Source: Manis javanica (Eukaryota > Chordata > Mammalia > Pholidota > Manidae). From it: a DNA stretch of 64,000 bases. The DNA is taken from contig NC_133167.1 in the NCBI RefSeq assembly GCF_040802235.1, forward strand, positions 82,003,001-82,067,000. Direction: 5' to 3'. A program made the translations under genes and the position numbers. Below, piece by piece: positions 3,736 through 59,756 of this stretch; the stretch's first letter is position 1; each line of letters begins with the position of its first letter. The notes beneath the pieces were generated by a model, which did no database searches, was not told where the DNA came from, and saw only the letters and a list, made by a program, of their open reading frames with translations.

Positions 3736-3739
3736 TTTC

Positions 3740-3830
3740 ATTCGTGCATCTATCCATTCACCCATTCAACAAAGATTTATTGGACCTCATTGCAAGAGAC
3801 ACCATGCTTGGTACTGTGTAGCCAGTCTAT
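3740..3830 (-). repeat. L2/MIR 3'-end fragment
   Basis: It contains the 'cattcaacaaagatttattg' block and a following 'gcttggtactgtg' block, typical of reverse-oriented L2/MIR 3' ends. The fragment is short and diverged. Confidence 0.45.
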
Positions 3831-3879
3831 AAAATCTTCATTTTCTCCTTTTTAAATTCTTTTCTTCTTAAAAAGAGTC

Positions 3880-3965
3880 TGTGTTCAAATTCCAGCTCCC
3901 CCTCTTTCTAGTGGTGGAATCTTGTACAAGTTACTTAACTTCTCTGTAAGATATTAATAATAATT
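3880..3965 (+). repeat. MIR SINE fragment
   Basis: The order 'ttcaaattccagctc', 'cttgtacaagttacttaac', 'tctctgtaa' follows the MIR core and the segment after it in sense orientation. Ancient and diverged. Confidence 0.5.
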
Positions 3966-4194
3966 TGAGCAAGAAAACTTCTTTAAAAATACGTATTTCA
4001 GCATAGAACTTTAAAAAGTATAGTCTATGGAGATATATTTTAAAAAGAAATATGTTAGGAGAGGAAAAAGAGTCTATGATGCAATATAAGCTTTAGCACA
4101 AACTCTGAGGATTGAGGAACAAGTGGGAGAGTTTCATCGAAGTTGTGTTGACTGGCAACATTCCCTAAAGTATAGACAAAACAGAAGTTGTGGT

Positions 4195-4757: not shown

Positions 4758-6290
4758 TGTGCCGGAGTCCAGCTCTAGCTGAGGTGTGGGTCACGAAGGA
4801 AAGGACAGTGTTGGTGAGTAAGGAGATAAATGAGGAGACGAAACACCCAATTAAGGTTGTAGCATCTCCTGACATCAAGCAGCAGGGTCTTTATTTTTAT
4901 ATCTTTTTAAGGTTTCCATAATGTTAAAACATTTTTCTTTAATCGTAAATAATACAATCCTTTTTCTGTCAGTTTACATAATTCCAGCTTATTACCCTTA
5001 AGTAAGTATCATCATTTCTTCTAATAGTAGCCATTTAACATGTAATTTTTAACTTTCCCCTAGTCTTATTGTGATTACTAATTCATGTAAGCTACATGCT
5101 AAGTACTAAACAGAAAATGGCATGAGACAGTGTTTGGGCTAAGTGTGTGGGCTATGATTTTTACTTATAAGCATGTAAAATTATATAGAGTTTAAGATAT
5201 GTGTCTAAGGCTCTATAAAGTTTAAGCAGGTTATATAAATGCAAGCTGTATGTCTTTTGGTTGTTAAGTGTAATGCTATATTATTAATTAAATTCTATCT
5301 TACACATGTGGGTTAAAGCTTACCTCTAAAATCTAGGGATGGTCCTCTTATCACATAAGTTTTAACATTCCTCAACATTCCTATGAATACAATAAAAACG
5401 CCTTATTCTTTCATAATATTCATTACCCAATTTCAGATGTTTACACCTTTCCTCCTGCATCTACAGGCACTAGGGCCTTGCAGTCCTCTTTATCTTTTAT
5501 ATAATAACACTAAATCTGCTCTTACTACCTTACCATTAATATAATAATATTTTATAAATTTATTATAAACTTCTATATATGGGATAATTATAAATGTAAA
5601 TCTTCCTATGTTGCTCATAAATTCTTTCTATGAGGGGTATACCAAAGGTGTGTTCTAATATTATAAAGCAAAATAAGGGGGGCCCTGGGCAGTGGGGACT
5701 ATCTTTATTACTTTGCTGTTTCATATAAGTTTATTGGGGAAAATGGGTTTTTCTATGGCCCAGGTTCCCATAACTTCTTCTCTGGCAATATTCTAAAGAA
5801 ATCCTGGTTAGTCATGTTTCAGTTCTTACAAAGGGGAGGACAAACTGCATCTATCTACTTTTAAGAGAGGCCTGGGTTGTCCTGCCTCACTTATATGTGG
5901 CAGTATGCCTGGAACAGTTGGTCCCATAACATAGTTTTTGTTTCCAGAATTGCTGCTTTGATCAATATTTTGGGTTATGTTATTTACTAAAGATCAATAA
6001 ATCTTAAATACAAAAGATTTCCCATATATGAGCCCAACCACCAACATCATAACTGCAAAACTAGGTGCAGGAATTAGCAGGGGCCAGCTATGAGGTTTCC
6101 TGTGTCCAGGATTCCTCCTCGTGCCTGGACCTTGTCAAACAGCACGAGCAGCATGGCCCACGCCACCAGTGTGTTTCACAGATCATCTCACGGTCTGATG
6201 AAGGATAGTGGTTTTTTAATCCAATTAGAAAACTGCTCTTACATTGAAGGGAGTGCTTCAATAGAAATAAGCAAATAATACTTTTGTGCA
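4758..6290 (-). mobile_element. Decayed class II-like ERV LTR with internal remnant
   Basis: Read on the minus strand, the left end terminates '..ctggactccggcaca', a CA-ending LTR terminus. Upstream of it is an AATAAA followed by 'gaccctgctgcttgatgtc', an arrangement like R-U5 of ERVK/IAP-type LTRs. The right part (about 6000-6290) may be the end of an env region, because a short hydrophobic stretch can be read on the minus strand near 6000-6055. The frame is broken. The U3 boundary, primer site and right end are not identified. It could instead be only an LTR plus unrelated DNA. Confidence 0.45.
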
Positions 6291-6821
6291 AATTAGATAT
6301 AAAGTCAGCCCACTTTTCATACTTGCACTTTAGTAGTTCTGTGCAAATGATCCACAGTCACAGGATATTTTCGCTTGGCACTAACAGCCAGTAAAAACAA
6401 GAGGTGTTCCAGTAAATATTTGTTGACCTAATTTGCTCTCACCCCACAATGGAAGAAAGAACTGCTCTTAGAGTGTTTGATTTTTGCATCTAGCCTGTTT
6501 TCATATGAGGCCACTTGCTGCCATAGTGGCCACTATTGATCTACTGATCCTTGGTTCCTCACCCAATGGAACTTATCTCCACATGTAGATGGACCCAATC
6601 ACTTCTGATATGTTTCCACATGTACTATTACAGCTTTAAAATATTTTAATAAAATTTTAGCATTGGAAGTTTAATTTAAAAAAGACTTTTATTGTTTCTT
6701 GAACACACATTCAGTAAATAGAAGAGAGTAAGATAAAAAAGGGACAGGAGGAAAAAGCAGTGCATCTGAAAATCTAAGGCAACTTCCATCACTTTACCCA
6801 CCAAAACATCTACATATCGCT
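6291..6821. other. Unassigned intergenic sequence
   Basis: Nothing recognised. Confidence 0.5.
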
Positions 6822-9055
<2,234 letters not shown>

Positions 9056-18872: not shown

Positions 18873-19530
18873 AGAACCCAAGAATGGACTAACAGGTACC
18901 AAAGGGAAAGGGAGTGGGGAGGATGGGTGGGTAGGGAGGGATTAGGTGGGGGAAGAAGAATGGGGGTATGATTAGCATCCATAATGGGGGGTAGGGGGGG
19001 AGAAAGGGGAGGGCTGTACAACACAGAGAAGACAAGTTGTGATTCTACAACATTTTGCTATGCTGATGGGCAGTGACTGTAAAGGGGTTTGTGGGGGGTA
19101 CCTTGTATAGGGGAGAGCCTAGTAAACATAATATTCTTCATGTAATTGTAGATTAATGATAACAAAAAAAAAGAAAGAAAAGGGGGATTTCTCCCTGATA
19201 GGATAAAACTAACTATAAATCAATGATTAATGCATGCTTTAAATATCCTTAATTTTGATCATTTAAAGGGTGTCAGATGATCAGCTATGGAAGTACATTT
19301 TTCTGATAATATTCCTTTCTCTTAAAAAAAAAAAGCAGTTCCTGTGTGGTGATCTCCAATAAATTCTTCACAATAATATAAAGGGCATATCAAAGTGTGG
19401 GCAACAGGTTTGTTTTTGTTTATACAGAGGATCAAAGCCTAATTTGGCTACCCAGAAAACGAATTAAGATATGATATGAAGAAGAACTTCCAACATCAAC
19501 ATTCTCTGGAAGAGTCATTCCTCTAGATGA

Positions 19531-19989
19531 TCATCAAAAAACTTCAACAAAGATCCTGGCGCTGTTGCAGTTGTAGCTGCATTCATCCCACCTGGACTTG
19601 CCATTGGAATGAAGAAGGAGATATCTAAGCTGGCCTGTGCATACAGTAAAACAACAAATTTGACTGGATCTATACTGTCGGAACTCAACCAAGAATTAGG
19701 AGAAGTGCAAGTTGCGGTGCTCCAAAATCTTGTGACTACAGACTATCTACTGTTAAAAGAACATATGGGATGTGAACAGTTCCCAGGAATGTGTTGTTTT
19801 AATTTGTCTGATTTTTCTCAAACTATTCAAATTCAGTTAGACAATATCCATCATATCATTGATAAGTTTTCACAAATGCTTAGGGTGCCTAACTGGTTTT
19901 CTTGGTTTCACTGGAGATGGCTGGTAATTGTATGTCTGCTTTGGTTATGTAGCTGTATTCCTATTATGTTATGTGTGTGCGTAATTTAA
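19531..19989 (+). pseudogene. env: Retroviral Env transmembrane-subunit fragment (copy 1)
   Basis: An open stretch of 153 codons follows an in-frame stop at 19528-19530. The first ATG is at 19609, giving 126 residues. Before the ATG, the frame holds a small hydrophobic Ala/Val/Gly-rich segment like a fusion peptide. After it come a heptad-like helical region (about residues 18-50), a CX6CC motif (C55, C62, C63), a second helical region with I/L/V spacing (about 75-95), and a Trp-rich hydrophobic anchor (about 102-126). This is the layout of gammaretrovirus-type (also type D) TM subunits, which drive membrane fusion. No surface subunit precedes it, so this is a fragment. It is part of the L1 chimera's 3' extension and has no evident promoter of its own. 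Confidence 0.8.
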
Positions 19990-20273
19990 TTAGCAGTTTA
20001 AAACCTGTACATGCAATAATCAATCTTCCCATGTTTTCTTCTGTCTGCTACTTCTATAGCCTTTCTTCTTCCTTCCTAATTACAACCCTTAAGTAGAATT
20101 CGTACCTCATATCGAAATTACCAGGTATCATCATTCTTCCAAGTGGTAAAGATACCTCAAGACAAATGCTGGGCATAAAAGCCACAGGGTGTAAATCCGC
20201 AAAGAAGTAAAAAGCTAACCTTTTCAAACAATATTGCTTCTCTCTCACTTACCAACTTTACATTTCCCTGTAT

Positions 20274-20360
20274 GGCCCCGGAAGATGACTGGTTAGCCAT
20301 AGACGGGTAAGATTCCTCAAAGGAGGAACAACCTAAGACAGGCACAGTCGCAGGGGGGCC
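20274..20360 (+). promoter_or_regulatory. CTE-like RNA export hairpin (copy 1)
   Basis: The motif ACGGGTAAGA (20303-20312) faces ACCTAAGACAGG (20331-20342) across a perfect 6-bp stem, TTCCTC/GAGGAA, with a 4-base loop. Further pairing is GACTG (20287-20291) with CAGTC (20345-20349), and GGCCCC (20274-20279) with GGGGCC (20355-20360). These two internal-loop sequences are those known from the constitutive transport element of type D retroviruses, which binds host NXF1/TAP to export unspliced RNA. Here there is one loop pair, where the type D element has two. Export activity is inferred. Confidence 0.75.
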
Positions 20361-20618
20361 ATCAGGTGACAAATTGGGGATCAACAGAGGTGAGGCTTAG
20401 AACCTCACCCCCCCCTGTTTTGAGAGAAATCTTCTGCATCCTTGGATGTTTTGTTGCCCTTGTCTAGCTTGAATTAATACTTAGTCTATAGGCACACACC
20501 TGATCATATATATTTGCCCTCTTACAGCACTAAACTGTTTTCTACCTTTATCTTGCATCTACCTACCACTTCAGCATTTTATTAAAAAAAAATAATAATA
20601 ATAATAATAAGGGAGAAA

Positions 20619-20940
20619 TGTGGGATCACATATAAACTAAGTATAAAACTCAAACGAATATTCATATTTGACCTGATTGTTTATAGTTCATAATGCGTGA
20701 TCAAAACCGAAAGTTTCTGTGATGACTGCCCTTGTACTGTTCACCATGTAAGAACTTATTCACTATGTAAGAATTTGTTCACCGTATAAGAACTTGTTCG
20801 TTATGCTTCAGAAGATTGGAGACTGACGAGAATTAGGCTTGAGATGGATTAATGATTGTGCATTGAGCATTGACTCCCCTATACAGAATTTTATTGTTGT
20901 TAACAACCATTAGATCAATAAATATGAGAGATGCCCTCTC
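20619..20940 (+). mobile_element. LTR U3-R portion carried at the 3' end of the L1 chimera (copy 1)
   Basis: Preceded by a purine tract (aagggagaaa, 20609-20618) and beginning TGTGGGATCA, as a 3' LTR should. It contains three imperfect direct repeats of a 'ttcaccatgtaagaacttg' type unit (about 20740-20800) and AATAAA at 20917-20922. It stops at 'gatgccctctc', where the A-tail begins. No U5 follows. This is the structure of the polyadenylated 3' end of a retroviral mRNA. Confidence 0.75.
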
Positions 20941-20949
20941 AAAAAAAAA

Positions 20950-22427
20950 TTGATTGCTTCAAACTGAATCAATAATTTTCTAACTATACTGGATGTTTAT
21001 CAGAAATAAACAGGAGGAAATAAACTACGCATCTTTCTTCTACTCCATAAATGTGTTCTTACTAATTGGTAGGTGCCTTGCCCTCCTGAAACATTACTGA
21101 TTCTTACAGAAAATTCTTGATCTAAACACAATGCAACTTATTTGCTGAAAACATGTCTTTGTGCTGAAAAAAACAATGTACTCAGGAAAAAAGTATCTTT
21201 TAGTCTAATGCAAAGTAGTTGACATGAAGAAAAAGAAGGAACAAGAAAAAATAAGGAATTATAGATAGTAAATACATATTTCATTTTCTCCTCTGCCTGC
21301 TGGGGAACTGGAATGAAGAATGGGTCAGATCATTTCCTCCAGGTGCTAATGATTGGTTAGACAGTCCTGTTAGGATTTTATCCGTGACCAGTTTCAGTAT
21401 TTTGCCAAAGGGTTGGTTTTAGAATTCTTTCTGCAAGAACGTGCTAATGCCAGAGCCAGTCCATCCCCCAAAGATCTGAATGAAAGATTCAAGTCATAGA
21501 CCAATTGGAAGGTATGTAGAACCAGAATTGAATGGGAGGACTGGAAAGAGGAATTGCTCATGTAAAGGTTTCTGAGAGAGCTCAAGAGGCTCAAAGCTCT
21601 TTACACATTTCTACCACTTGTGTGGCAAGCCCAAGACATTGAAGGTGACCCATTCATGTAGGACAGATGTTTCCCATAGGGTGTTCTGAGAAAGCACTAA
21701 TTCCTCAGAATATACTAAGAAGAAAGGTGGACACTGCATTTCTTAATGCCACAATGTAGAATAATTTAAATTAGCATTCTGGCTCCTATGTTATTATAAC
21801 TGGAAACTTAAATATTTATTATTTGAAACTATATCATTTATATATGCAAGAAACTGTATAAGTCTCTGTGACGGCTCCTTGGTATTTTAGCATTTTTAAT
21901 CTTATTTCACATTTAGTAAGTTTCTTGCAATAGCCCTGTATAACCAGAACTAGTAAATTATTGTGACTTTCTTAGATTCCTTTTCATCAAAAATGATTTT
22001 TAAAATTTTATTAGAAAGAAATATCATGAGCTCCTGACTGTTCACTCTCCAATATCCATTGCAGTCACATAATCCCATTCCTTTTGGCCTTAAATCCCAA
22101 TTATGATGGATGAAGTGTAAAGAAAGTCTGAGTAATCCAGGGAATGTTCCCTCATGCTTAGAATGATATGGAAAGAGACAGTTGCTCCTTTTTCTTTGGA
22201 TAATCTCATTTCTGTATGGGATATCAGGCTAAGCTGTTGATTTGCAACAACAAGGGTAAAATCCCAGACCCTTCACTGATGAAGACTGACTGTGGAAGAG
22301 TATGGGAAGGTAATCAAGAAGAAAAGCACAAGGGAGAACATAATAAGCAGGAGGGGCAAAGGGCCCTTGGAGACAGCAGAGAAGGTCTGGAAACAGATTG
22401 ACAAATTCTGACCATTAGAGAGGAAGG
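20950..22427. other. Unassigned intergenic sequence
   Basis: Nothing recognised. Short open frames only. Confidence 0.45.
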
Positions 22428-23494: not shown

Positions 23495-25378
23495 AGCCTA
23501 ACAAGGAAGTGAAAGTCCTATACTCTGAAAACTACAAGACACTCATGAGAGAAATAGAAGATACCAATAAATGGAAACACATCCCATGCTCATGGATAGG
23601 GAGAATTAATATTGTCAAAATGGACATCCTGCCTAAAGCAATCTATAGATTCAGTGCAATTCCTGTCAGAATACCAACAGCATTCTTCAATGAACTAGAG
23701 AAAATTGTTCTAAAATTCATTTGAAACCACAAAAGACCCCGAATATCCAAAGCAATCCTGAGAAGAAAGAATAAAGATGGGGGGATTATGCTCCCCAACT
23801 TCAAGCTCTACTACAAAACCATAGTAATCAGGACAATTTGGTACTGGCACAAGAACAGACCTATAGACTAATGGAACAGACTAGAGAGCCCTAATATAAA
23901 CTCAACCATATATGGTCAATTAATATATGGTAAAGGAGCCATGGGCCTACAATGGGGAAATGACAGCCTCTTCAACAGCTGGTGTTGACAAAACTGGACA
24001 GCTACATGCAAGAGAATGAAACTGGATTATTGTTTAACCCTGTACACAAAAGTAAACTCAAAATGGATAAAAAACCTGAATGTAAGTCATGAAACCATAA
24101 AACTCTTAGAAGAAGACAACATAGGCAAACATCTCCTGAATATAAGCATGAACCAATTCTTCCTGAATGCATCTCCTCGAGCAAGGGAAACAAAAGCAAA
24201 AATGAACACATAGGACTACATCAAACAAAAAAGTTTCTGTATGGCAAAGGACACCATCAACAGAACAAAAAGGCATCCTACAGTATGGGAGAGTGTATTT
24301 GTAAATGACATATCTGACAAGGGGTAAACATCCAAAATATATAAAGAACTTACACACCTCAACACCCAAAAAGCAAATAACCCAATTAACAAATGGGCAG
24401 AGGATATGAAGAGACAATTCTCCAAAGAAGAAATTCAGATGGCCAACAGATACATGAAAAGATGCTCCACATCACTAATCATCAGGGAAATGCAAATTAA
24501 AACCAGAATGGATATCACCTCACACCAATAAGGATGGCCAGCATTGAAAAGACTAAGAAAAACAAATGCTGGTGAGGATGAGGAGAAAGGGGAGCCCTCC
24601 TACACTGCTGGTGGGAATGTAAGCTAGTTCAACCATTGTGGAAAGCAACATGGAGGTTCCTCAAGAAACTAAAAACAGAAATACCATTTGACCCGGGAAT
24701 CCCACTCCTTGGAATTTTCCCAAAGAATACAACTTCTGAGATCCAAAAAGACATATGCACCCCTATGTTTATTGCAGCACTATTTACAATAGCCAAGATA
24801 CGAAAGCAACCTAAGTGGCCATCAGCAGATCAATGGATAAAGAAGAGGTGATACATATACACGATGGAATACTATTCAGCCATAAGAAAGAAACAAATCC
24901 TACCATTTGCAAAAACATGGATGGAGCTGGAGGATATTATGCTCAGTGAAATAAGCCAGGTGGAGAAAGACAAGTGCCAAATGATTTCCCTCATTTGTGG
25001 AGTATAACAACGAAGCAAACTGAAGCAACAAAATAGAAGCCGACTCACAGACTCCAAGAAGGGACTAGAGGTTACCAAAGGGGAGGAGTATGGGAGGGTG
25101 GGTGGGGAGGGAGGGAGAAGGGGATTGAGGGGTATTATGTTTAGTACACATGGTGTTGGGGATCATGGGAAAACAGTGTAGCACAGGGAAGGCAAACAGT
25201 GAATCTGTGGCATCTTACTACACTGATGGACAGTGACTGCATGGGTGGCGACTTGATAATATGGGTAAATGTAGTAACCACATTGTTTTTTCATGTGAGA
25301 CCTTCATAAGAGCATATATCAATAATACCTTAATAAAAATCAATCAATCAATCAATCAATTAATTAATTAATTAATAT
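23495..25378 (+). mobile_element. 5'-truncated L1 (ORF2 C-terminus and canonical 3' UTR)
   Basis: Starts in ORF2 at codons equivalent to 'LTKEVK.LYSENYK' of the young L1. It runs through the C-terminal region and the zinc-knuckle area (degraded) to the ORF2 end near 25000. The 3' UTR has a G-rich tract (25078-25140) and ends with 'ataccttaataaaaatcaat' and (AATC)n/(AATT)n. ORF2 is broken by several stops and shifts. This is the ordinary L1 3' end and carries no retroviral extension, a useful contrast with the chimeric copies. Confidence 0.85.
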
Positions 25379-32434: not shown

Positions 32435-32927
32435 TGTTAGGGTCCGGGCTTCCGAAGCTTCTCCAGAGAACAAACTACACAGGCATAGAGATGTAAATTC
32501 AAGCAAAGTCTTTATTCAGCCAGCTAGCTGGGGTCCAAGTGTCAGCCCGACGCAGCGGGTCTCAACAAGGACCCCGAGCACTCAAAGCCAAGGGTTTATA
32601 TAGCATTTTCAAAGCACTTAACTCATAGTAATTTTCCACAGCTATACATTATTCTTGCAAGACATACATCCTGGAGTTAAGCAAGGGCAGGATAAGACTA
32701 CTCCTCAATGGTTAGGGAGGTTCTGCACGATAAGCTTGGTATGTAAGATTAACTGAACAAGGTTAGCTGACCAAGGGTCACAGCTGCCCACCACCCAGTG
32801 CTCATGATTAACTTGTTTTTCAAGGCCTAACCCAGGCCCAGTTTTTCTTTCTAAGTCACATACTCAGAAAATGGCTTCTAGGCCTTTAAGATGGCTATGC
32901 TTATGCTAACCTATTTCTATTCTTACA
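32435..32927 (-). repeat. ERV-A LTR (3' LTR of the provirus)
   Basis: 493 bp, TG..CA. On the minus strand it holds U3, a TATA-like 'tatataaaccc', AATAAAGACTTTGC polyadenylation region, and a U5 ending 'ggaccctaaca'. Polypurine tract on its inner side (AAGAAGAGGGGAA on the minus strand). Confidence 0.88.
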
Positions 32928-40352: not shown

Positions 40353-40843
40353 TGTTAGGGTCCGGGCTTCCGAGGCTTCTCTAGAGAACAAACTACACAG
40401 GCATAGAGATGTAAATTCAAGCAAAGTCTTTATTCAGTCAGCTAGTTGGGGTCCAAGTCAGCCCGACGCAGCGGGTCTCAACAAGGACCCCGAGCACTCA
40501 AAGCCAAGGGTTTATATAGCATTTTCAAAGCACTTAACTCATAGTAATTTTCCACAGCTATACATTATTCTTGCAAGACATACATCCTGGGGTTAAGCAA
40601 GGGCAGGATAAGACTACTCCTCAATGGTTAGGGAGGTTCTGCACGATAAGCTTGGTATGTAAGATTAACTGAACAAGGTTAGCTGACCAAGGGTCACAGC
40701 TGCCCGCCACCCAGTGTTCATGATTAACTTGTTTTTCAAGGCCTCACCCAGGCCCAGTTTTTCTTTCTAAGTCACATACTCAGAAAATGGCTTCTAGGCC
40801 TTTAAGATGGCTATGCTTATGCTAACCTATTTCTATTCTTACA
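40353..40843 (-). repeat. ERV-A LTR (5' LTR of the provirus)
   Basis: 491 bp, nearly identical to the other LTR. U5 ends at 40353 and the primer-binding site follows after two bases. U3 start TGTAAGAATAGAAATAGG at 40843 on the minus strand. Confidence 0.88.
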
Positions 40844-45008: not shown

Positions 45009-45023
45009 ACCAGACTCATTATT
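45009..45023. repeat. Target-site duplication, left
   Basis: accagactcattatt, identical to 52714-52728. It abuts the A-tail (T-run on the plus strand). Confidence 0.92.
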
Positions 45024-45040
45024 ATTATTATTTTTTTTTT

Positions 45041-45370
45041 GAGAGGGCATCTCTCATATTTATTGATCAAATGGTTGTTAACAACAATAAAATTCAGTAT
45101 AGGGGGGTCAACGCTCAATGTACAATCATTAATCCATCTCAAGCCTAATTCTCGTCAGTCTCCAATCTTCTGAAGCATAACGAACAAGTTCTTACATGGT
45201 GAACGAATTCTTACATAGTGAATAAATTCTTACATGGTGAACAGTACAAGGGCATTCATCACAGAAACTTTCGGTTTTGATCATGCAATATGACCTATAA
45301 ACAATCAGGTCAAATATGAATATTCGTTTGATTTTTGTACTTGATTTATATGTTGATCCACATTTCTCCT
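45041..45370 (-). mobile_element. Polypurine tract and LTR U3-R closing the L1 chimera (copy 2)
   Basis: The purine tract AGGAGAAA (45363-45370, minus strand) precedes TGTGGATCAAC (LTR start at 45362). The LTR has three 'ttcaccatgtaagaa' type repeats (about 45180-45245) and AATAAA (45059-45064). It ends at 45041 where the A-tail starts. U5 is absent. The L1 transcript therefore used the retroviral cleavage/polyadenylation site. Confidence 0.78.
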
Positions 45371-45626
45371 ATTATTATTATTATTTTTATTTTTAATAAA
45401 ATGCTGAAGTGGTAGGTAGATGCAAGATAAAGGTAGAAAACATAGTTTAGTGCTGTAAGAAGGCAAATGTAGATGATCAGATGATCAGGTGTGTGCCTAT
45501 GGACTAAGTATTAATCCAGGCTAGACAAGGGCAGCAAGACATCCACGGATGCAGAAGATTTCTCTCAAAGCAGGGGGGGTGAGGTTCTGAGCCTCACCTC
45601 TGTTGATCCCCAAATTCTCACCTGAT

Positions 45627-45713
45627 GGCCCCCCTGCGACTGTGCCTGTCTTAGGTTGTTCCTCCCTTGAGGAATCTTACCCGTCTCTGGCTAACCAGTC
45701 ATCTTCCGGGGCC
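45627..45713 (-). promoter_or_regulatory. CTE-like RNA export hairpin (copy 2)
   Basis: On the minus strand the same layout as copy 1: GGGGCC-type base stem (45708-45713 with 45627-45634), GACTG/CAGTC stem (45696-45700 with 45638-45642), ACGGGTAAGA (45675-45684) facing ACCTAAGACAGG (45645-45656), and an apical TTCCTC/GAGGAA stem. The apical loop is AAGG here and AAAG in copy 1, so base differences fall in the loop while pairing is kept. Known role of these loops in type D retroviruses is binding NXF1/TAP. Its role in L1 RNA is inference. Confidence 0.75.
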
Positions 45714-45999
45714 ATACAGGGAAATGTAAAGTTGGTAAGTGAGAGAGAAGCCATATTGTTTGCAAAGGTTAGCTTTTTACTTCTTTGCAGATTTATGCCC
45801 TGTGGCTTCTATGCCCAGCACTTGTCTCGAGGTATCTTTACCACCTGGAGGAATTATGATACTCGGTAAATTCGATATGAGGCACGAATTCTATTTAAGG
45901 GTTGTAATTAGAAAGGAAGAAGAAAAGCTATAGATGTAGCATATGAAGGAAACATGGGAGGATTGATTATTTCTTTGACATATCTTCTTGTATAGTACC

Positions 46000-46441
46000 T
46001 TAAGTATGTATAGGTTTTAAACTACTAACTAATTTGCACACACATATTAACGTAATAGGAATACAGTGACATAAACAAAGCAAATCTATAATTACCATCC
46101 ATCTCCAGTGAAGCCAAGAAAACCATTTAGGCACCCTAGGCATTTGTGAAAATTTATCTATGATATGATGGATATTGTCCAACTGTACTTGAACCATCAG
46201 ACAAATTAAAGCAGCCCATTTCTGGAATCTGTTCACATCCCATATGTTCTTTTAACCATAGATAGTCTATAGTCATGAGATTTTGGAGTGCTACAACTTG
46301 CACCCCTCCCAACTCCTGGTTGAGTTCCAACAGTACAGATCCGGTCAAATTCGTTGTCTCACTGTATGCACATGCCAGCCTAGACATCTCCCTCCTCATT
46401 CCTATGGCAAGTCCAGGAGACGGTGGGCTGGATGCAGCCAC
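46000..46441 (-). pseudogene. env: Retroviral Env transmembrane-subunit fragment (copy 2), broken
   Basis: Homologous to the fragment at 19531-19989. An ATG at 46441 opens 95 residues that read into the TM ectodomain. Relative to copy 1, about 11 bases are missing just after the 'CFNLSD' block, shifting the frame. The second half, including the Trp-rich membrane anchor, continues in another frame (46000-46236). The first Cys of the CC pair in the CX6CC motif is replaced by Gly. No surface subunit. It is carried as part of the L1 3' extension and not expected to function as Env. Confidence 0.8.
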
Positions 46442-46695
46442 AACCGCAGCATCGTCCGGATCCCTGTGGAGGCTTTTTGATGATCATCCCCCCGCACAAG
46501 TCCTCCAGAGAGTGCTGATGCCGGAAGCTCCTCCTCATATCGTATCTTAGTTCATTTTCTGGGTATCCAAGCTAGGCCTTGATCTTCTGCGTAGAAACAA
46601 ACAGACCCTTTGTCCACACTTTGACATGCCCTCTATACCACTGTGCAGAACTCATGGGAGGTCAGCACACAGTAACTGCTTTTTTTTTTTTTTTT

Positions 46696-47217
46696 AATTA
46701 AGAGAAAGGAATATTATCAGAAAAGAGTACCTCCATAGCTGATCATCTGACACCCTTTAAGTGATCAACATTAAGGATATTTAAAGCATGCATTGATCTT
46801 TGATTTACCAATAGTTTTATCCTGTTAAGGAGTAATCCCCCTTTTCTTTCTTTCTTTCTTTCTTTTTTTTTTTTTTTTAATTTTTAATCTACACTTACAT
46901 GAAGAATACTATGTTTACTATGCTCTCCCCTATATCAGGTCCCCCCTAACAACCACATTACGGTTACTTTCCATCAGCTTAGCAAAATGTTGTAGAGTCA
47001 CTACTTGTCCTCTCTGTGTTGTGCAGCCCACCCTCCCCTTTCTCCCTCCCCCCATGCATGCTAATCTTAATACCCCCCTTCTTCTTCCCCCCCTTATCCC
47101 TCCCTGCCCACCCATCCTCCCCAGTTCCTTTCCCTTTGGTACCTGTTAGTCCATTTTTGGGTTCTGTAATTCTGCTGCTGTTTTGTTCCTTCAGTTTTTC
47201 CTTTGTTCCTATACTCC
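46696..47217 (-). other. L1 3' UTR and first downstream segment
   Basis: From the ORF2 stop, the minus strand shows a G-rich polypurine stretch (about 47030-47150). The L1-like tail 'catgtaa..gtagatt' is followed by an A/GAAA tract (46841-46880). A further 145 bp of unidentified sequence ends at the second A-tract (46680-46695). The tail lacks the final 'accttaataaaa' of the canonical L1 end at 25.3 kb. Confidence 0.75.
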
Positions 47218-50200
47218 TCAGATGAGTGAAATCATTTGGTATTTCTCTTTCTCCGCTTGGCTTATTTCACTGAGCATAATACTGTCCAGCTCCATCCATG
47301 TTGCTGCAAATGGTTGGATTTTTCCACTTCTTATGGCTGAGTAGTATTCCATTGTGTATATGTACCACATCTTCTTTATCCATTCATCTACCGATGGACA
47401 TTTAGGTTGCTTCCAATTCTTGGCTATTGTAAATAGTGCTGCGATAAACATAGGAGTGCATCTGTCTTTCTCAAACTTGATTGCTGCGTTTTTAGGGTAA
47501 ATTCCTAGGAGTGGAATTCCTGGGTCAAATGGTAGGTCTGTTTTGAGCATTTTGATGCACCTCCATACTGCTTTCCACAATGGTTGAACTAATTTACATT
47601 CCCACCAGCAGTGTAGGAGGGTTCCCCTTTCTCCACAGCCTTGCCAACATTTGTTGTTGTTTGTCTTTTGGATGGCAGCTATCCTTACTGGTGTGAGGTG
47701 ATACCTCATTGTAGTTTTAATTTGCATTTCTCTGATAATTAGTGATGTGGAGCATCTTTTCATGTGTCTCTTGGCCATCTGTATTTCTTTTTTGGAGAAC
47801 TGTCTGTTCAGTTCCTCTGCCCATTTTTTAATTGGGTTATTTGTTTTTTGTTTGTTGAGGCGTGTGAGCTCTTTATATATTCTGGACGTCAAGCCTTTAT
47901 CGGATCTGTCATTTTCAAATATATTCTCCCATACTGTAGGGTTCCTTTTTGTTCTATTGATGGTGTCTTTCTCTGTACAGAAGCTTTTCAGCTTAATGTA
48001 GTCCCACTTGCTCATTTTTGCTGTTGTTTTCCTTGCCCGGGGAGATATGTTCAAGAAGAGATCACTCATGTTTATGTCTAAGAGGTTTTTGCCTATGTTT
48101 TTTTCCAAGAGTTTAATGGTTTCATGCCTTACATTCAGGTCTTTGATCCATTTTGAGTTTACCTTTGTATATGGGTTTAGACAATGGTCCAGTTTCATTC
48201 TCCTACATGTAGCTGTCCAGTTTTGCCAGCACCATCTGTTGAAGAGACTGTCATTTTGCCATTGTATGTCCATGGCTCCTTTATCAAATATTAATTGACC
48301 ATATATGTTTGGGTTAATTTCTGGGGTCTCTAATCTGTTCCACTGGTCTGTGGCTCTGTTCTTGTGCCAGTACCAAATTGTCTTGATTACTATGGCTTTG
48401 TAGTAGAGCTTGAAGTTGGGGAGTGAGATCCCCCCTACTTTATTCTTCTTTTTCAGGATTGCTTTGGCTATTCGGGGTCTTTGGTGTTTCCATATGAATT
48501 TTTGAATTATTTGTTCCAATTCATTGAAGAATGTTGCTGGTAATTTGAGAGGGATTGCATCAAATCTGTATATTGCTTTGGGCAGGATGGCCATTTTGAC
48601 GATATTAATTCTTCCTAGCCATGAGCATGGGATGAGTTTCCATTTATTAGTGTCCCCTTTAATTTCTCTTAAGAGTGACTTGTAGTTTTCAGAGTATAAG
48701 TCTTTCACTTCTTTGGTTAGGTTTATTCCTAGGTATTTTATTCTTTTTGATGCAATGGTGAATGGAATTGTTTTCGTGATTTCTCTTTCTATTGATTCAT
48801 TGTTAGTGTATAGGAAAGCTACAGATTTCTGTGTGTTAATTTTGTATCCTGCAACTTTGCTGTATTCCGATATCAGTTCTAGTAGTTTTGGAGTGGAGTC
48901 TTTAGGGTTTTTTATGTACAGTATCATATCATCTGCAAATAGTGACAGTTTAACTTCTTCTTTACCAATCTGGATTCCTTGTATTTCTTTGTTTTGTCTG
49001 ATTGCCGTGGCTAGGACCTCCAGTACTATGTTAAATAACAGTGGGGAGAGTGGGCATCCCTGTCTGGTTCCCGATCTCAGTGGAAATGCTTTCAGCTTCT
49101 CGCTGTTCAGTATAATGCTGGCTGTGGGTTTATCATATATGGCCTTTATTATGTTGAGGTACTTGCCCTCTATTCCCATTTTGCTGAGAGTTTTTGTCAT
49201 GAATGGATGTTGAATTTTGTCAAATGCTTTTTCAGCATCTATGGAGATGATCATGTGGTTTTTGTCTTTCTTTTTGTTGATGTGGTGGATGATGTTGATG
49301 GATTTTCGAATGTTGTACCATCCTTGCATCCCTGGGATGAACCCCACTTGGTCATGGTGTACGATCCTTTTGATATACTGTTGAATTCTGTTTGCTAATA
49401 TTTTATTGAGTATTTTTGCATCTACATTCATCAGGGATATTGGTCTGTAATTTTCTTTTTTGGTGGAGTCTTTGCCTGGTTTTGGTATTAGGGTGATGTT
49501 GGCCTCATAGAATGAGTTTGGGAGTATTCCCTCTTCTTCTATTTTGTGGAACACTTTAAGGAGAATGGGTATTATGTCTTCTCTGTGTGTCTGATAAAAT
49601 TCCGAGGTAAATCCGTCCGGCCCCGGGGTTTTGTTCTTGGGTAGTTTTTTGATTACTGTTTCAATTTCTTTGCTTGTAATTGGTTTGTTTACCTTTTGTG
49701 TTTCTTCCTTGGTCAGTCTTGGGAGGTTGTATTTTTCTAGGAAGTTGTCCATTTCTTCTAGGTTTTCCAGCTTGTTGGCATATAGGTTTTCATAGTAGTC
49801 TTTAATAATTCTTTGTATTTCTGTGGAGTCTGTCGTGATTTTTCCATTCTCATTTCTGATTATGTTGATTTGTGTTGACTCTCTTTTTCTCTTAATAAGT
49901 TGGGCTAGAGGCTTATCTATTTTGTTTATTTTCTCAAAGAACCAGCTCTTGGTTTCGTTGATTTTTGCTATTGTTTTATTCTTCTCAATTTTGTTTATTT
50001 CTTCTCTGATCTTTATTATGTCCCTCCTTCTGCTGACTTTAGGCCTCCTTTGTTCTTCTTTTTCCAGTTTTAATAATTGTGATGTTAGACTATTCATTTG
50101 GGATTGTTCTTCCTTCTTCAAGTGTGCCTGGATTGCTATATACTTTCCTCTTAAGACTGCTTTCGCTGCATCCCACAGAAGTTGGGGCTTAGTGTTGTTG

Positions 50201-51060
50201 TTGTCATTTGTTTCTATATATTCCTTGATCTCTATTTTAATTTGTTCATTGATCCATTGATTATTTAGTAGCATGTTGTTAAGCCTCCATGTGTTTGTGA
50301 GCCTTTTTGTTTTCTTTGTAGAATTTATTTCTACTTTCATACCTTTGTGGTCTGAAAAATTTTTTGGTAGAATTTCAATATTTTGGAATTTACTGAGGCT
50401 CTTTTTGTGAGCTAGTATGTGGTCTATTCTGGAGAATGTTCCATGTGCACTTGAGAAGAATGTATATCCTGTTGCTTTTGGATGTAGAGTTCTATAGATG
50501 TCTATTAGGTCCATCTATTCTAGTGTGTTGTTCAGTGCCTGTGTGTCTTTACTTATTTTCTGCCCGGTGGATCTATCCTTGGGGGTGAGTGGTGTGTTGA
50601 AGTCTCCTACAATGAATGCATTGCAGTCTATTTCCCTCTTTAGTTCTGTTAGTATTTGCTTCACATATGCTGGTGCTCCTGTATTGGGTGCATATATATT
50701 TAGAATGGTTATATCCTCTTGTTGGACTGAGCCCTTTATCATTATGTAGTGGCCTTCTTTATCTCTTGTTACTTTCTTTGTTTTGAAGTCTATTTTGTCT
50801 GATATTAGTACTGCAACCCCTGCTTTCTTCTCACTGTTGTTTGCCTGAAATATGTTTTTCCATCCCTTGACTTTTAGTCTATGCTTATCTTTGGGTTTAA
50901 GGTGAGTTTCTTGTAAGCAGCATATAGATGGGTCTTGCTTTTTTATCCATTCTATTACTCTATGTCTTTTGATTGGTGCATTAAGTCCATTTACATTTAG
51001 GGTGACTATTGAGAGATATGTACTTATTGCCATTGCAGGCTTTAGATTCGTGGTTACCAA
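47218..51060 (-). pseudogene. ORF2: L1 ORF2 protein (endonuclease/reverse transcriptase), one premature stop
   Basis: ORF2p nicks target DNA and reverse-transcribes L1 RNA at the nick. The total frame is 1,280 codons, interrupted once by TAG at 50515-50517 (codon 182) after 'QALNNTLE', probably CAG-to-TAG. The 181-residue first part has endonuclease landmarks: an Asn in 'LNVNGLN', Glu in 'LQETHLK', Asp/Asn in 'GDFNTPL'. After the stop come the rest of the endonuclease ('SRIDHI', 'FSDHKG'), then reverse transcriptase with 'TPGPDGF' and the catalytic FADD near codon 710. A C-terminal Cys-rich knuckle (C-X3-C-X7-H-X4-C) lies near codon 1140, ending at 47218. The start may be the ATG at 51060 or the Met of 'MAISTYLS' ten codons later. 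All catalytic residues I can check are present, but the stop separates the endonuclease. Confidence 0.92.
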
Positions 51061-51228
51061 AGGTTCAAGGTTAGCTTCTTTAGTATCTTACTGCCTAACT
51101 TAGCTTGCTTATTGAGCTGTTATATACACTGTCTGGAGATTCTTTTCTTCTCTCCCTTCTTATTCCTCCTCCTCCATTCTTCATATGTTGTGTGTTTTGT
51201 TCTGTGCTCTTTTTAGGGGTGCTCCCAT

Positions 51229-52152
51229 CTAGAGCAGTCCCTGTAGGATGCCCTGTAGAGGTGGTTTGTGGGAAGCAAATTCCCTCAGCTTTTGCTTGTC
51301 TGGGAATTGTTTAATCCCACCATCATATTTAAATGATAGTCGTGCTGGATACAGTATCCTTGGTTCAAGGCCCTTCTGTTTCATTGCATTAAGTATATCA
51401 TGCTATTCTCTTCTGGCCTGTAGGGTTTCTGTTGAGAAGTCTGATGTTAGCCTGATGGGTTTTCCTTTATAGATGACCTTTTTCTCTCTAGCTGCCTTTA
51501 AAACTCTTTCCTTGTCCTTGATCCTTGCCATTTTAATCACTATGTGTCTTGGTGTTGTCCTCCTTGGATCCTTTCTGTTGGGTGTTCTGTGTAATTCCAT
51601 GGTCTGTTCGATTATTTCCTCCCCCAGTTTGGGGAAGTTTTCAGCAATTATTTCTTCAAAGACACTTTCTATCCCTTTTCCTCTTTCTTCCTCTTCTGGT
51701 ATCACTATAATACGAATGTTATTCCTTTTGTATTGGTCACATATTTCTCTTAGTGTTGTTTCATTCCTGGAGATCCTTTTATCTCTCTCTATGTCAGCTT
51801 CTATACGTTCCTGTTCTCTGGCTTCTATTCCTTCAATGGCCTCTTGCATCTTATCCATTCTGCTTATAAATCCTTCCAGGGATTGTTTCACTTCTGTGAT
51901 CTCTTTCCTGACATCTGTGATCTCCTTCCGGACTTCATCCCACTGCTCTTGCATTTTTCTCTGCATCTCATCCCACTGCTCTTGCATTTTTCTCTGCATC
52001 TCATCCCATTGCTCTTGCATTTTTCTCTGCATCTCTGTCAGCATGTTCGTGATTTTTATTTTGAATTCTTTTTCAGGAGGACTAGTTAGGTCTGTCTCCT
52101 TCTCAGGTGTTGTCTCTGTGATCTTTGTCTGCCTGTAGTTTTGCCTTTTCAT
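51229..52152 (-). pseudogene. ORF1: L1 ORF1 protein, one premature stop
   Basis: ORF1p is the RNA-binding trimeric chaperone of the L1 ribonucleoprotein. The frame opens at MKRQNYRQTK and runs 249 residues to a TAG at 51403-51405. It resumes in frame for 57 residues to the natural stop at 51229-51231. The break is probably a TGG-to-TAG change in a W-H-D-I type position of the C-terminal domain. Residues about 35-110 form a coiled coil that contains three direct 11-residue repeats (E-M-Q-R-K-M-Q-E-Q-W-D, residues 40-72). Residues about 145-235 match the RRM domain ('NIRIIVIPEEEER', 'RTTPRHIVIKMA'). Truncation would remove most of the C-terminal RNA-binding domain. Intergenic gap to ORF2 is 168 bp. 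Confidence 0.9.
51936..52034 (-). repeat. Three 33-bp tandem repeats in L1 ORF1 coiled coil
   Basis: Units at 51936-51968, 51969-52001 and 52002-52034, identical but for one base in the third. Each encodes an 11-residue (hendecad) coiled-coil turn. Confidence 0.93.
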
Positions 52153-52713
52153 GGTGATAGAGATAGTTTGCAGAGCTGGTACAAGTGAGCGCTGGAAGAG
52201 CTTCCTTTCTTGTTGGTTTGTAGCGTTTTCCTGGGAGAATAGCGAACTCTAGTTGCTTGTGCTGGACAGCTGTGCGCAGACAGGGCTTCTGCTTCCTGCC
52301 CAGTTGCTTTGGGGTTTATCTCCGCTGTTGCTCTGGGCTTGGCCTGGCTGGGGCTGTTCCTCCAAAATGGTGGAGCCCCGTTGGCGGGGGAGCGGCCAGG
52401 AGGCTATTTATGTCCGTAAGGGGTCTCTGTGCTCCCTGCTGCCCAGGGGGTTAGAGTGCCCAGAGATACCCAGATTTCCTGCCTCTGGTCTAAGTGACCT
52501 GTACTGCCCCTTTAAGACTTCCAAAAAGCACTCTCCAAACCCCCTTCGCAAGGCACTGGGTTCTTGCAGGTGTGGATGTGGTCTGTATGTTGTCCTGTGT
52601 CCTGTGGTCTCTATTTTAGGAAGATTTTTATTTGTTATATTTTCATAGCTCTATGTGTTTTTGGGAGGAGATTTCCACTGCTCTACTCACGCCGCCATCC
52701 TGGCTCCGCCCCC
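52153..52713 (-). promoter_or_regulatory. L1 5' UTR with internal promoter
   Basis: 561 bp from the G-rich start to the ORF1 ATG. The beginning 'gagccaggatggcggcgtga' holds a GATGGCGG/'CCGCCATC' element, the YY1-type site known to position L1 transcription starts. The interior is moderately GC-rich with a 'caccattttgga' second YY1-like core near 52360. It is complete, so this copy had its own promoter. It differs in sequence from the older 5' UTR at 9.9 kb. Confidence 0.75.
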
Positions 52714-52728
52714 ACCAGACTCATTATT
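52714..52728. repeat. Target-site duplication, right
   Basis: accagactcattatt, immediately outside the L1 5' end. The next bases give ATTT/AA, a good match to the L1 endonuclease cleavage preference for an element inserted on the minus strand. Confidence 0.92.
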
Positions 52729-52871
52729 TAAAAAAATCAAATGAAATCAAAGCAAACCAACAAAAAAACCCTGCTTTTATGGTTCTTGTTTTGTTCTGAG
52801 AGCTCTAAAGCATATGTCTACAGCAACATATAAACCTTAAACTTATCTTAATTTCAGCCTTCTCATCTTCG

Positions 52872-53382
52872 TGAGACAGGGACTATGAGTGTAGTTAGAG
52901 AAGGGTGAGGGCCTCCAGAAAAAGCAAGGCAGGATATTTACAGTCAGAGCAATGTAACAATGTGCAAAGAAGTCCCTATTGAAACTCTGTGTTAAACATT
53001 AAGCTCTAGAGTCATTCTTCAGTGAGATCAGTTGATACTCCCCAGATAAAGGAAAGGAGCCCATTTTTATTATGCTAATCATTTGCAATCATGTGTAAGA
53101 TTCACTTTAGCATGCTAAAAGGGACTTAATGTCTCATCAAGGACAAACATCCTCAGACCACTTTTAACAAGTCCACACCCTAAGCCCTTTATCAGTTCCC
53201 CAAAATCCTCAACTGCCTATAAATCCCCTAGACGATGCACCACCCCAGGCCCCGGGCTCTCTTGTCCCCTCCTGGCGTGAGCCAGGATCTCTGTCCTCTC
53301 AATAAAAGCCTCACCCTGGCTCTCCTTTCTTGGTGTTAGCTAAGTTCATTCTTCTACTCCACAAACAAGAACTCTGGCATCA
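52872..53382 (+). mobile_element. Solo LTR, family C (copy C1)
   Basis: Begins 'tgagacagggac', ends 'ctctggcatca'. AATAAA in 'ctcaataaaagcctcaccc' (near 53300), with a TATA-like 'gcctataaatcccctag' about 85 bp upstream. The reverse complement of 56092-56643 is the same family. A target duplication is not clear (ttcg against tctg). Confidence 0.78.
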
Positions 53383-54526
53383 TCTGCTCTGTTTATCACT
53401 ATTCTTTGTTCCTTACTCATCACTTCTGCAAAGTGAAGCAACAGCATGAGGCCTCTCATTCTTCACTTCCCATTTGACCTAAGAGCATATTAATCCTCCC
53501 AGTTCTTCTTCTCACCTCTTCTTACCCTCACTCTGCCCTCAATTTCTGTCAGTTTTGTTGAAGTTGAAAAGATTTTGTTTTATGATAATAGTGAAGGTCA
53601 TATGACTTGCCTATAGTTTTTCACCTAAAAAAAAGTGCATTTATATTACTATGGCTATAGAAATACTTACATTACCTCCTCAACAAAGCTGGGCCATTAC
53701 ATGGAAAATGTTTCCAGCGTTAGGTACAGATGGATGGTCCTGCATTATGCCGAAACAATTTCCAATCCTATCATTATAAGATTTACTGATGTGGTTGATT
53801 GGTGTTGTGCTGATGTCTTCCACTAGTTGTCATTTTTACATTAATCTAAACCTTGAAAAATGAATCATTTAATGGAATCCCAGATGGGAGGAGCAATAAA
53901 TAAAATGGTTTTTATTAAATAGTCATATAAGCTACATGATGCTTAAGCAAGAGATGATGTAAGGAGAAACTTTTAAAAGAAAGAATGCCTGTCACCACAG
54001 AACCACTGAACATTAGAAGACTCTCCTCTAATTTACAGATCAGGAAAACAGGGTAGAATAAGTTCATTTTCTAATTTCACACAACTAGTTAGTATCAGTC
54101 TAGAATGAATGGCAATTCTGAGGTAATAGCTGTTTACCTGATGACAGCTGATTTTAAGAGCACCTAATGAATGTTTTTGCTTAAAAAATTAGAACTTGGT
54201 CCACCTGGCACCTTTAGATAAATCAATACTTAATAATGTATTTTATTTTTCGTTGACCTGACTTTTGGTCTATATTTGCTATACTTTAAGCCTCTCATAC
54301 TCTTCTTAAAGCAGAGAGAAGCTGGAGGCACTTTACTATGCAAATCTCAATATATTAGAGTAATCTTGTAGCTGATGTAGTTTCTCAGTTCTAATCTCAG
54401 TTCCTGTCAGAAAAAAAAAAGTTCTCTTTTAAAATCCCTTTTAATGAGTGATTTATTTAGCAACATTTTATTTGATCATATTTCAGTTAAATTCTAAGCC
54501 CCCAAAAATAATTCTAAATTTTTAGG
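53383..54526. other. Unassigned sequence between LTRs
   Basis: Nothing recognised. Confidence 0.45.
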
Positions 54527-57634: not shown

Positions 57635-58131
57635 TGTAAGAATGGGAATAGGTTAGCATAAGAGTAGCCATCTTAGGGGCCTAGAAGCCATTTTATTTAG
57701 AAAGAAAAAACTGGGCCTGGGTAAGGCCTTGAAAAACAAGTTAATCATGAGCACTGGGTGGTGGGCAGCTGTGACCCTTGGTCAGCTAACCTTGGTCAGT
57801 TAATCTTACATACCAAGCTTATCGTGCAGAACCTCCCTAGCCATTGAGGAGTAGTCTTATCCTGCCCTTGTTTAACCCCAGGATGTATGTCTTGCAAGAA
57901 TAATGTATAGCTGTTGAAAATTACTATGAGTTAAGTGCTTTGAAAATGCTATATAAACCCTTGGCTCTGAGTGCTCGGGGTCCTTGTTGAAACCTGCTGT
58001 GTGAGGCAGACACTTGGACCCCAGCTAGCTGGAATAATAATAAACCTCTTGCTTGTTGCATCGATCTGCCGTGGCCTTCGTCTCCTCACTGGGGGGAAGC
58101 GCAGACTGGAATAAGGCCGTTGGGTCTTACA
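57635..58131 (+). mobile_element. Solo LTR of the ERV-A group with a different R-U5
   Basis: 497 bp, plus orientation, TG..CA, 4-bp duplication cctt (57631-57634, 58132-58135). From 'tgtaagaatgggaataggtt' through the TATA-like 'tatataaaccc' to 'cagctagctgg' (58027) it matches the ERV-A LTR. After that, the polyadenylation region and U5 ('aataataataaacctcttgc' to 'gttgggtcttaca') are unrelated to ERV-A. This is a U3-sharing recombinant or sister subfamily. Confidence 0.85.
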
Positions 58132-59265: not shown

Positions 59266-59756
59266 TGTTAGGGTCCGGGCTTCCGAGGCTTCTCTAGAGA
59301 ACAAACTACACAGGCATAGAGATGTAAATTCAAGCAAAGTCTTTATTCAGCCAGCTAGTTGGGGTCCAAGTCAGCCCGACGCAGCGGGTCTCAACAAGGA
59401 CCCCGAGCACTCAAAGCCAAGGGTTTATATAGCATTTTCAAAACACTTAACTCATAGTAATTTTCCACAGCTACACATTATTCTTGCAAGACATACATCC
59501 TGGGGTTAGGCAGGAGCAAGATAAGACCACTCCTCAATTGTCAGGGAGGTTCTGCACGATAAACTTGGTATGTAGGATTAGCTGACCAAGGTTAGCTGAC
59601 TAAAGGCCACAGCTGCCCACCATCTGGTGTTCATGATTAGCTTGTTTTTCAAGGCCTTACCCAGTTCCAGTTTTTCTTTCTAAGTCACATACTCAGAAAA
59701 TGGCTTCTAGGCCTTTAAGATGGCTATGCTTATGCTAACCTATTTCTATTCTTACA
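59266..59756 (-). mobile_element. Solo LTR of ERV-A
   Basis: 491 bp, same boundaries as the ERV-A LTRs, flanked by a 4-bp duplication gcag (59262-59265, 59757-59760). It differs from the proviral LTRs at more positions than they differ from each other, mainly around 59515-59620. Confidence 0.88.

Follow-up and report, generated by a model that had tools for sequence, protein, structure and literature searches.

A Malayan pangolin L1 lineage with a retroviral 3′ end

In a 64,000-nucleotide stretch of the genome of the Malayan pangolin, Manis javanica (NCBI RefSeq assembly GCF_040802235.1, contig NC_133167.1, positions 82,003,001 to 82,067,000; henceforth the window), an L1 retrotransposon on the minus strand is followed by about 1.8 kb of sequence that resembles the 3′ end of an endogenous retrovirus (ERV). 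The locus raises the question of whether the L1 and this tail moved as one unit, whether such a unit exists elsewhere in the genome and, if so, what the retroviral part contributes to it. Taking the evidence as a whole, we regard the window element as very probably a member of a Malayan pangolin L1 lineage with a retroviral 3′ end.

Read along the minus strand from 52713 to 45024, the insertion comprises, in order, an L1 5′ untranslated region (UTR), ORF1, ORF2, a 3′ UTR with an A-tract, the extension (46837–45041) and an A-tail, with the AATAAA of the extension at 45064–45059 preceding that tail. An identical pair of a 15-bp target-site duplication (TSD), ACCAGACTCATTATT, encloses the whole; with up to two mismatches allowed, the chance level is a mean of 0.27 matches, and two or more were obtained in 2 of 100 shuffles. 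The original prediction had drawn the duplication around both the L1 and its extension, and had named a local nested insertion as the case that would undo it. The two flanks joined across a single target copy are found at four other places (with 0, 1, 2 and 2 mismatches in 41 nt), each of which coincides with one paralogous duplicate of the flank. Given the exact duplication and these four empty sites, L1 and tail therefore came in together, in a single event. A nested insertion, with an L1 that came to lie next to an ERV fragment and a duplication that encloses the two fortuitously, could draw on the internal A-tract at the L1 joint, which looks like an L1 tail; however, the four empty sites hold neither part and thousands of places share the joint, so that we rejected this explanation as almost inconceivable. 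The architecture is also that of an L1 insertion: an A-tail and a TSD within the 7–20 bp characteristic of L1 surround the entire unit, and a second A-tail with extra 3′ sequence lies inside the one TSD, as in 3′ transduction families. It departs from that of a provirus or a solo long terminal repeat (LTR) in its 15-bp TSD, its single LTR part and its A-tail in the place of U5.

The flank on the L1 5′ side recurs at nine further places on C12, the contig that holds the window (95–100% identity, one of them partial), three of which sit ~6 kb from copies whose L1 end and tail are 99.6–99.96% identical to those of the window (L002–L004). Because the window flank is duplicated alongside them, these are segmental copies and not new insertions, and we rejected them as proof of recent jumping. 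For the two flank duplicates that remain, no empty site turned up at up to 3 mismatches, nor do they figure among the 40 scored joints. The segmental duplicates of the flank, at 25.2 Mb and 72.8–82.9 Mb of C12, comprise three with L1 plus tail, four without and two undecided, and such a mixture furnishes a built-in clock for the duplications.

The fused unit is by no means confined to this locus. A 27-mer from the end of the tail (R-end) has 18,443 exact matches genome-wide and a 22-mer across the joint has 8,488, the reversed controls yielding none; in a search with the joint, all 40 scored places (the best 40 of 1080 candidates) span it at 97–100% identity. Counted from the L1 side, an ORF2 25-mer that is blind to the tail has 15,612 matches, which fall into two forms (C and T). 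Over positions 1–10.88 Mb of C1, where both the ORF2 25-mer and the R-end lists are complete, an exact R-end lies 0.5–4.5 kb downstream on the same strand in 38 of the 58 C-form L1s (34 of these 38 at 2.10–2.31 kb) versus none of the 22 T-form L1s. Ten of the remaining 20 C-form L1s were read and all ten have the tail after the L1, as against none of six T-form L1s; with the list of joints added, the tally becomes 57 of 58 tailed for the C form versus 0 of 22 for the T form. Speaking against too literal a reading of this tally, one C-form L1 is undecided and both counts include segmental duplicates: the ten tailed reads contain three near-identical groups (L051 equals L057; L052, L053 and L055 at 99.4–99.7%; L058 and L059 at 99.8%), and the six canonical T-form reads one (L061, L063 and L066 at 97–98%). 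Thousands of copies sharing one fusion joint constitute a genome-wide L1 lineage with a retroviral 3′ end, to which L1s with a canonical end stand as a separate form. An older T-form L1 in the window itself (23520–25375, plus strand), which ends canonically with AATAAA followed by an A-rich repeat, provides a local control for the tailed form.

We sampled 20 stretches at consecutive R-ends on C1, which left 14 rows after removal of overlaps and duplicates (L034, L038, L043, L045, L046 and L047). Eleven of these run back into L1, eight of them as far as the L1 5′ UTR, and three are truncated inside the tail. Among ten rows tested for TSDs, exact repeats of 11–16 nt occur in L032, L035, L049 and in L033 together with its duplicate L043 (0.4–2.4% of 500 random pieces being as good); L037 shows only an A-run, and L031, L036, L048 and L050 none of at least 8 nt. 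By eye, the outer flanks of the L036/L037 tandem have 13 of 14 nt in common, and those of L050 14 of 15. Both the recurrence of the joint and the distinctness of the target duplications, which the original prediction had left to be checked, are thereby borne out, the latter by four exact sampled insertions and two imperfect ones.

The truncated rows bring up another possibility, namely that the tail is a non-autonomous, SVA-like element moved by L1, with the L1-linked copies as by-products. Such an element might account for the three rows of 14 that begin inside the tail and for the 62 of 100 R-ends in the first 10.9 Mb of C1 that have no exact partner of the L1 25-mer. However, the three tail-only copies start at element positions 6538, 6399 and 6773, as 5′ truncation gives, and the 11 other rows run into L1, which makes this explanation very improbable. 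An apparent tail-only family made up of L035, L038 and L047 was rejected, all three being duplicates of one insertion. As to the state of the L1 itself, a stop-free ORF2 stretch of 1289 codons is present in two of the eight copies that reach the 5′ UTR and one of 1253 codons in a third, which makes recent activity of the lineage probable.

Same-strand R-ends within 3 kb of each other form eight pairs (three from one trimer) versus 1.35 expected, the maximum in 2000 random placements being seven; on opposite strands there is one pair. In L033 and L036/L037 tail pieces are linked by A-runs within one target duplication, and L044 is a further tandem joined through A-runs, with three R-ends spaced at 370 bp. 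Such tandem tails look as if the L1 reverse transcriptase had jumped between templates or slipped on the tail.

Judged by its sequence, the tail is retroviral, being composed of a remnant of the transmembrane subunit (TM) of Env, a hairpin with loop strands like those of a constitutive transport element (CTE), and an LTR-like U3-R. For the first of these, the evidence comes through the second, older L1-plus-tail copy in the window, whose open frame at 19531–19989 matches the TM structures 4jpr and 5h9c of avian sarcoma and leukosis virus (ASLV; E=1e-12, 67 residues) and, more weakly, filovirus-type GP2; it has the CX6CC spacing and no Pfam match up to E=1. The Env TM fragment of the original prediction thus holds, as does its U3-R with AATAAA and an A-tail, which is present in the sequence and has a near-identical R in separate proviral LTRs.

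A broken ERV in L031 offers counterparts of both the pre-env/5′ env piece of the tail (3652–4019) and its TM (4819–5276), at 77–79% identity to the tail copy in the L031 locus and 69–71% to the window tail. Between the two counterparts lies 0.8 kb of the surface subunit (SU) that is missing from the L1 tail; an intron may account for this gap, as its borders allow GT..AG by eye, but in an ERV that is only 77–79% and 69–71% like the respective tails. The counterpart of the joint in this ERV reads ACAAAGAGGGGGGATTACTCC. As the counterpart of the spacer is contiguous with env there, the A16 run of the tail falls inside ERV-derived sequence, and a two-step capture involving a 150-bp cellular spacer was rejected. 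R-ends followed by U5-like sequence make up a separate family: a pattern allowing up to two mismatches has 246 matches, of which 100 were placed and 76 read with letters, some of the 76 being A-rich or other ends and not LTRs. Among the matches listed, the R end is followed in many places by GGCACCACTCT or AGCACCACTCT, and at least six pairs lie 7.28–7.32 kb apart on the same strand, as in proviruses, with letters of both members for three of them. When SU was searched for as a link between the donor env and this LTR, none of the 40 scored places (the best 40 of 387 candidates) fell inside the 7.28–7.32-kb LTR pairs; this is a point against the reading proposed here, as the donor provirus is thereby not pinned down. 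A source locus with the tail as its native flank was not found either, only the related L031 ERV and the R-U5 LTR family, and a search of viral contigs gave 0 matches. The first 6469 positions of L031 and the places found with SU additionally outline (partly by eye) a multicopy composite ERV that has gag p10, an integrase reading into which an env (SU-TM) block is set, a two-unit CTE-like stretch of its own and an LTR of another kind. In several copies gag p10 lies ~3.6 kb before SU.

The hairpin folds at −47.9 kcal/mol, compared with a shuffled mean of −39.0, and 1 of 200 shuffles was as good. Of its two loop strands, which we take to resemble those of type D retroviral CTEs, GACGGGTAAGA is exact in 40 of 45 rows and CCTAAGACAGG in 44 of 45. 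No Rfam family matches the hairpin, a sub-threshold snoZ6 hit (45808–45849) lying outside it. On the debit side, 0 of 660 cells are compensatory and 14 are broken, and the putative CTE identity draws on loop motifs and a fold. The CTE-like hairpin that had been proposed earlier accordingly keeps its stable fold and conserved loop strands, and lacks both an Rfam match and compensatory change.

L1 3′ ends are usually regarded as weak, leaky poly(A) sites. In copies of the tailed lineage the A-tail follows directly on the R-end, which is what cleavage at the LTR-derived poly(A) site would leave. In the whole genome, only six exact R-ends continue with two non-A bases and a later non-A, a pattern that leaves out R-ends followed by a single non-A base, and in 9 of the 10 rows tested for TSDs the 3′ flank opens with four or more A. 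Cleavage of the lineage's RNA at the retroviral site is the simplest reading. Within the last 110 nt of the L1 part, where the L1 formerly ended, AATAAA occurs in 3 of 50 tailed rows, a set that includes segmental copies and one locus twice, and three old full-span copies have neither AATAAA nor ATTAAA; all six canonical reads carry AATAAA close to their end (in L062 within the A-rich tail). With the old L1 end internal and mostly devoid of AATAAA, the lineage would depend on the retroviral poly(A) site, a dependence already envisaged in the original prediction and well supported by where the copies end. To be set against this is the weaker signal ATTAAA near the old L1 end in 46 of the 50 tailed rows, by which the dependence may be incomplete.

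Whether anything in the tail beyond this signal matters to the L1 can be approached through its divergence. Three full-span old copies (window 18.9–20.9 kb, L031 and L048) were compared with 34 young rows, which exclude L002–L004, L033, L037 and L049 and may hold further duplicates; CpG sites were left out. Fixed differences between old and young amount to 58 of 597 positions in env, 7 of 73 in the L1 3′ UTR, 10 of 128 in the spacer and 7 of 136 after the TM, versus 15 of 717 from element position 6881 to the end (4 of 233 in the CTE region, 8 of 381 from there to U3 and 3 of 103 in R). Env is about five times as much changed as the CTE-to-R part (p=1.6e-9). Private changes in the young rows are even (env 0.54–0.60%, tail 0.51%), and those of the old copies are, for env and tail, 2.4% and 2.6% in the window copy, 3.4% and 4.3% in L031, and 7.9% and 5.0% in L048; fixed versus private changes give p=1.7e-6 for the young and p=1.2e-6 for the old. 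This pattern suggests that the CTE-to-R part was kept by selection on the active lineage. Tail and env trees recover the same old/young split (ultrafast bootstrap, UFBoot, 83 and 100, respectively), the split branch measuring 0.109 in env versus 0.012 in the tail, and the next old branch, parting L048 from the other old copies, 0.037 versus ~0.008 over two weakly supported tail branches.

Ancient recombination could also yield a low divergence of the CTE-to-R part, if exchange or gene conversion, instead of selection, had homogenized it among the old and the young tailed L1s. Consistent with this, the drop in fixed differences starts near element position 6800, tail pieces become linked at A-runs when these very elements are reverse-transcribed, and two younger internal branches are only a little shorter in the tail (0.024 in env versus 0.014, and 0.008 versus 0.007). 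Yet both trees have the same old/young split, so that the young tail does not fall among the old ones, and the L048 split is also shorter in the tail; we therefore deem recombination rather unlikely. Selection must nevertheless contend with these younger branches and with the fact that its signal comes from only three full-span old copies.

A weightier alternative accepts the lineage as an ordinary 3′ transduction family, whose founder locus happened to be active and for which only AATAAA matters, the CTE, U3 and env pieces being passengers. Such transduction is a known habit of L1s, env is decaying and the hairpin is without compensatory change; against it, old and young copies are much more alike in the ~790-bp CTE-to-R part than in env, with the private mutations of the young being even. 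We consider it a real possibility, if one short of likely. The reading that we put forward, itself tentatively though as quite possible, is that an autonomous L1 swapped the 3′ end of its RNA for a retroviral control region, namely a CTE-type hairpin and an LTR poly(A) site, which selection kept and which aided its spread. Co-option of the CTE-to-R part is suggested by these comparisons but not proven.

As for the origin of such an element, a founder L1 would have been joined at its A-tail to the RNA of a class II ERV that lacked most of the Env SU. Transcription may have started in an L1 within or next to a provirus and read through, or the reverse transcriptase may have jumped from the ERV RNA to the A-tail of the L1 RNA; either route would give an old L1 A-tract fused to ERV sequence, and comparable joints are indeed seen in the tandem tails described above. 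The old L1 end, mostly without AATAAA, would then have become internal and the retroviral poly(A) site would have taken over; the CTE-to-R part would have been kept by selection for use of that site, and probably also for NXF1-type export of unspliced L1 RNA. With an abundant L1 that ends in env-CTE-LTR sequence, it becomes possible to test whether the success of L1s in nature is limited by RNA export and by 3′ end formation. In pangolins, moreover, thousands of L1 tails may be listed as ERVs or LTRs in repeat annotation.

No L1 lineage with a retroviral 3′ end was found in the literature searched, in which subscription journals were thinly covered and Dfam entries lay outside. L1 3′ transduction families are typically small and carry unique sequence. 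In them, as in the pangolin elements, further sequence separates the old L1 end from the new A-tail and a TSD surrounds the whole; the pangolin tail differs in being a retroviral RNA end, borne by most of the recent-looking L1s of the stretch sampled. The hairpin can be likened both to the CTE of the Mason–Pfizer monkey virus (MPMV) type and to an NXF1-binding element of human L1, as a hairpin with export-type loop strands in an unspliced RNA; it differs in showing only one pair of loop strands, and its NXF1 binding is putative.

The closest analogue is the SINE-R of SVA, a composite retrotransposon of hominids; this SINE-R consists of the env 3′ end and the 3′ LTR of HERV-K10; like the pangolin tail, it combines these parts of an ERV, ends in an A-tail and is moved by the L1 machinery (PMC12593883). 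SVA is non-autonomous, however, and encodes no L1 proteins, whereas the pangolin tail has a CTE-like hairpin and sits on an L1 with its own ORF1 and ORF2. The unit thus shares with an SVA-like composite the env and LTR 3′ end followed by an A-tail, and does not share the absence of an L1 coding region. An NXF1-binding element has been described in the human L1 3′ UTR (Lindtner 2002, as cited in PMC3045867), and restoring the native element to the synthetic L1 ORFeus-Hs did not raise and slightly lowered retrotransposition (PMC3045867). A retrovirus that exchanged its export system for a CTE is known from SERV-K/MER11 (PMC11379458), and chimeric L1-LTR sequences have been named as template-switching products in mouse work, there in a built construct (PMC6500023). 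The class II ERVs of Manis pentadactyla (ERV-Beta.a/b and ERV-Alpha) include a betaretroviral LTR of 387 nt and, in ERV-Beta, a gamma-type TM with CX6CC, to which the LTR-like U3-R and CX6CC TM of the pangolin L1 tail may be compared; they differ in being proviruses with paired LTRs, and a LINE-1 described there sits between ENV and the 3′ LTR of one gamma ERV, as an insertion and not as a lineage with a tail (PMC12584738).

The L1 body of the window copy has the expected proteins, an ORF1 with the Transposase_22 domain and an ORF2 with endonuclease and reverse transcriptase (RT), but a premature stop in ORF2 parts the latter two. The best named relatives of its ORF1 are Manis javanica L1 ORF1 proteins of 285 and 292 aa, at 88% identity. 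It had been called full-length, which is right inasmuch as 5′ UTR, ORF1, ORF2 and 3′ UTR are all present, and needs amending for the premature stop and for the loss of 0.4–1.1 kb of 5′ UTR found in other copies. Because the unit ends at the retroviral R and not at the L1's own 3′ UTR, it is a variant of L1 and not the standard form. Compared with L036, L040 and L041, the 5′ UTR break (52539–52541) has a splice-donor-like GGGG/GTAAGA and follows a T-rich stretch; in this it resembles human spliced L1 insertions, although the acceptor is not AG.

Table 1. Coordinates of the window L1, its retroviral tail and a second tailed copy
Feature	Position in window	Strand	Basis
Target-site duplication, tail side	45009..45023	none	exact 15-mer pair; joined-flank empty sites elsewhere
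A-rich tail of the insertion	45024..45040	-	sequence
LTR-like U3-R, 322 nt, its end being the start of the copies' A-tail	45041..45362	-	starts TGTGG after purine tract; R-end 27-mer copies; proviral LTRs with near-identical R and U5
AATAAA poly(A) signal, ~20 nt before the tail	45059..45064	-	sequence
Putative polypurine-tract-like GGAGAAA	45363..45369	-	sequence
CTE-like hairpin, loop strands GACGGGTAAGA and CCTAAGACAGG	45590..45725	-	fold z -2.6; loop strands kept
Env TM remnant, frame broken in window copy	46005..46463	-	homologous second window copy matches ASLV TM; L031 ERV counterpart 4819-5276
ERV-derived pre-env/5′ env piece, internal A16 run 46680-46695	46464..46837	-	contiguous counterpart in L031 ERV 3652-4019
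Fusion joint, derived from the earlier L1 A-tail and reading (A)n(GAAA)nAGGGG	46838..46878	-	joint 22-mer, 8,488 exact copies
L1 3′ UTR, G-rich tract, AATAAA absent near its end	46879..47217	-	sequence
ORF2 RT part, 1098 codons	47218..50514	-	PF00078 E=2.7e-46
ORF2 endonuclease part, cut by premature stop	50515..51060	-	PF03372 E=1.7e-16
ORF1, 249 codons, perhaps shortened	51403..52152	-	PF02994 E=1.9e-23
L1 5′ UTR, may hold the ORF1 start, shortened at ~52540	52153..52713	-	other copies carry extra sequence there
Target-site duplication, L1 5′ side	52714..52728	none	exact 15-mer pair
Second L1-plus-tail copy, older, 5′-truncated, same joint	18873..20950	+	sequence comparison in the window

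Two further repeats were noted in the neighborhood of the insertion. Adjoining it at 52870–53390 is a high-copy, LTR-like repeat with AATAAA, the segment 52729–53400 of the window having 5605 candidate places. Elsewhere in the window, a family of 300-nt direct repeats occupies 32437–32736, 40353–40652 and 59266–59565 at 73–96% identity, with inverted copies at ~57706–58040.

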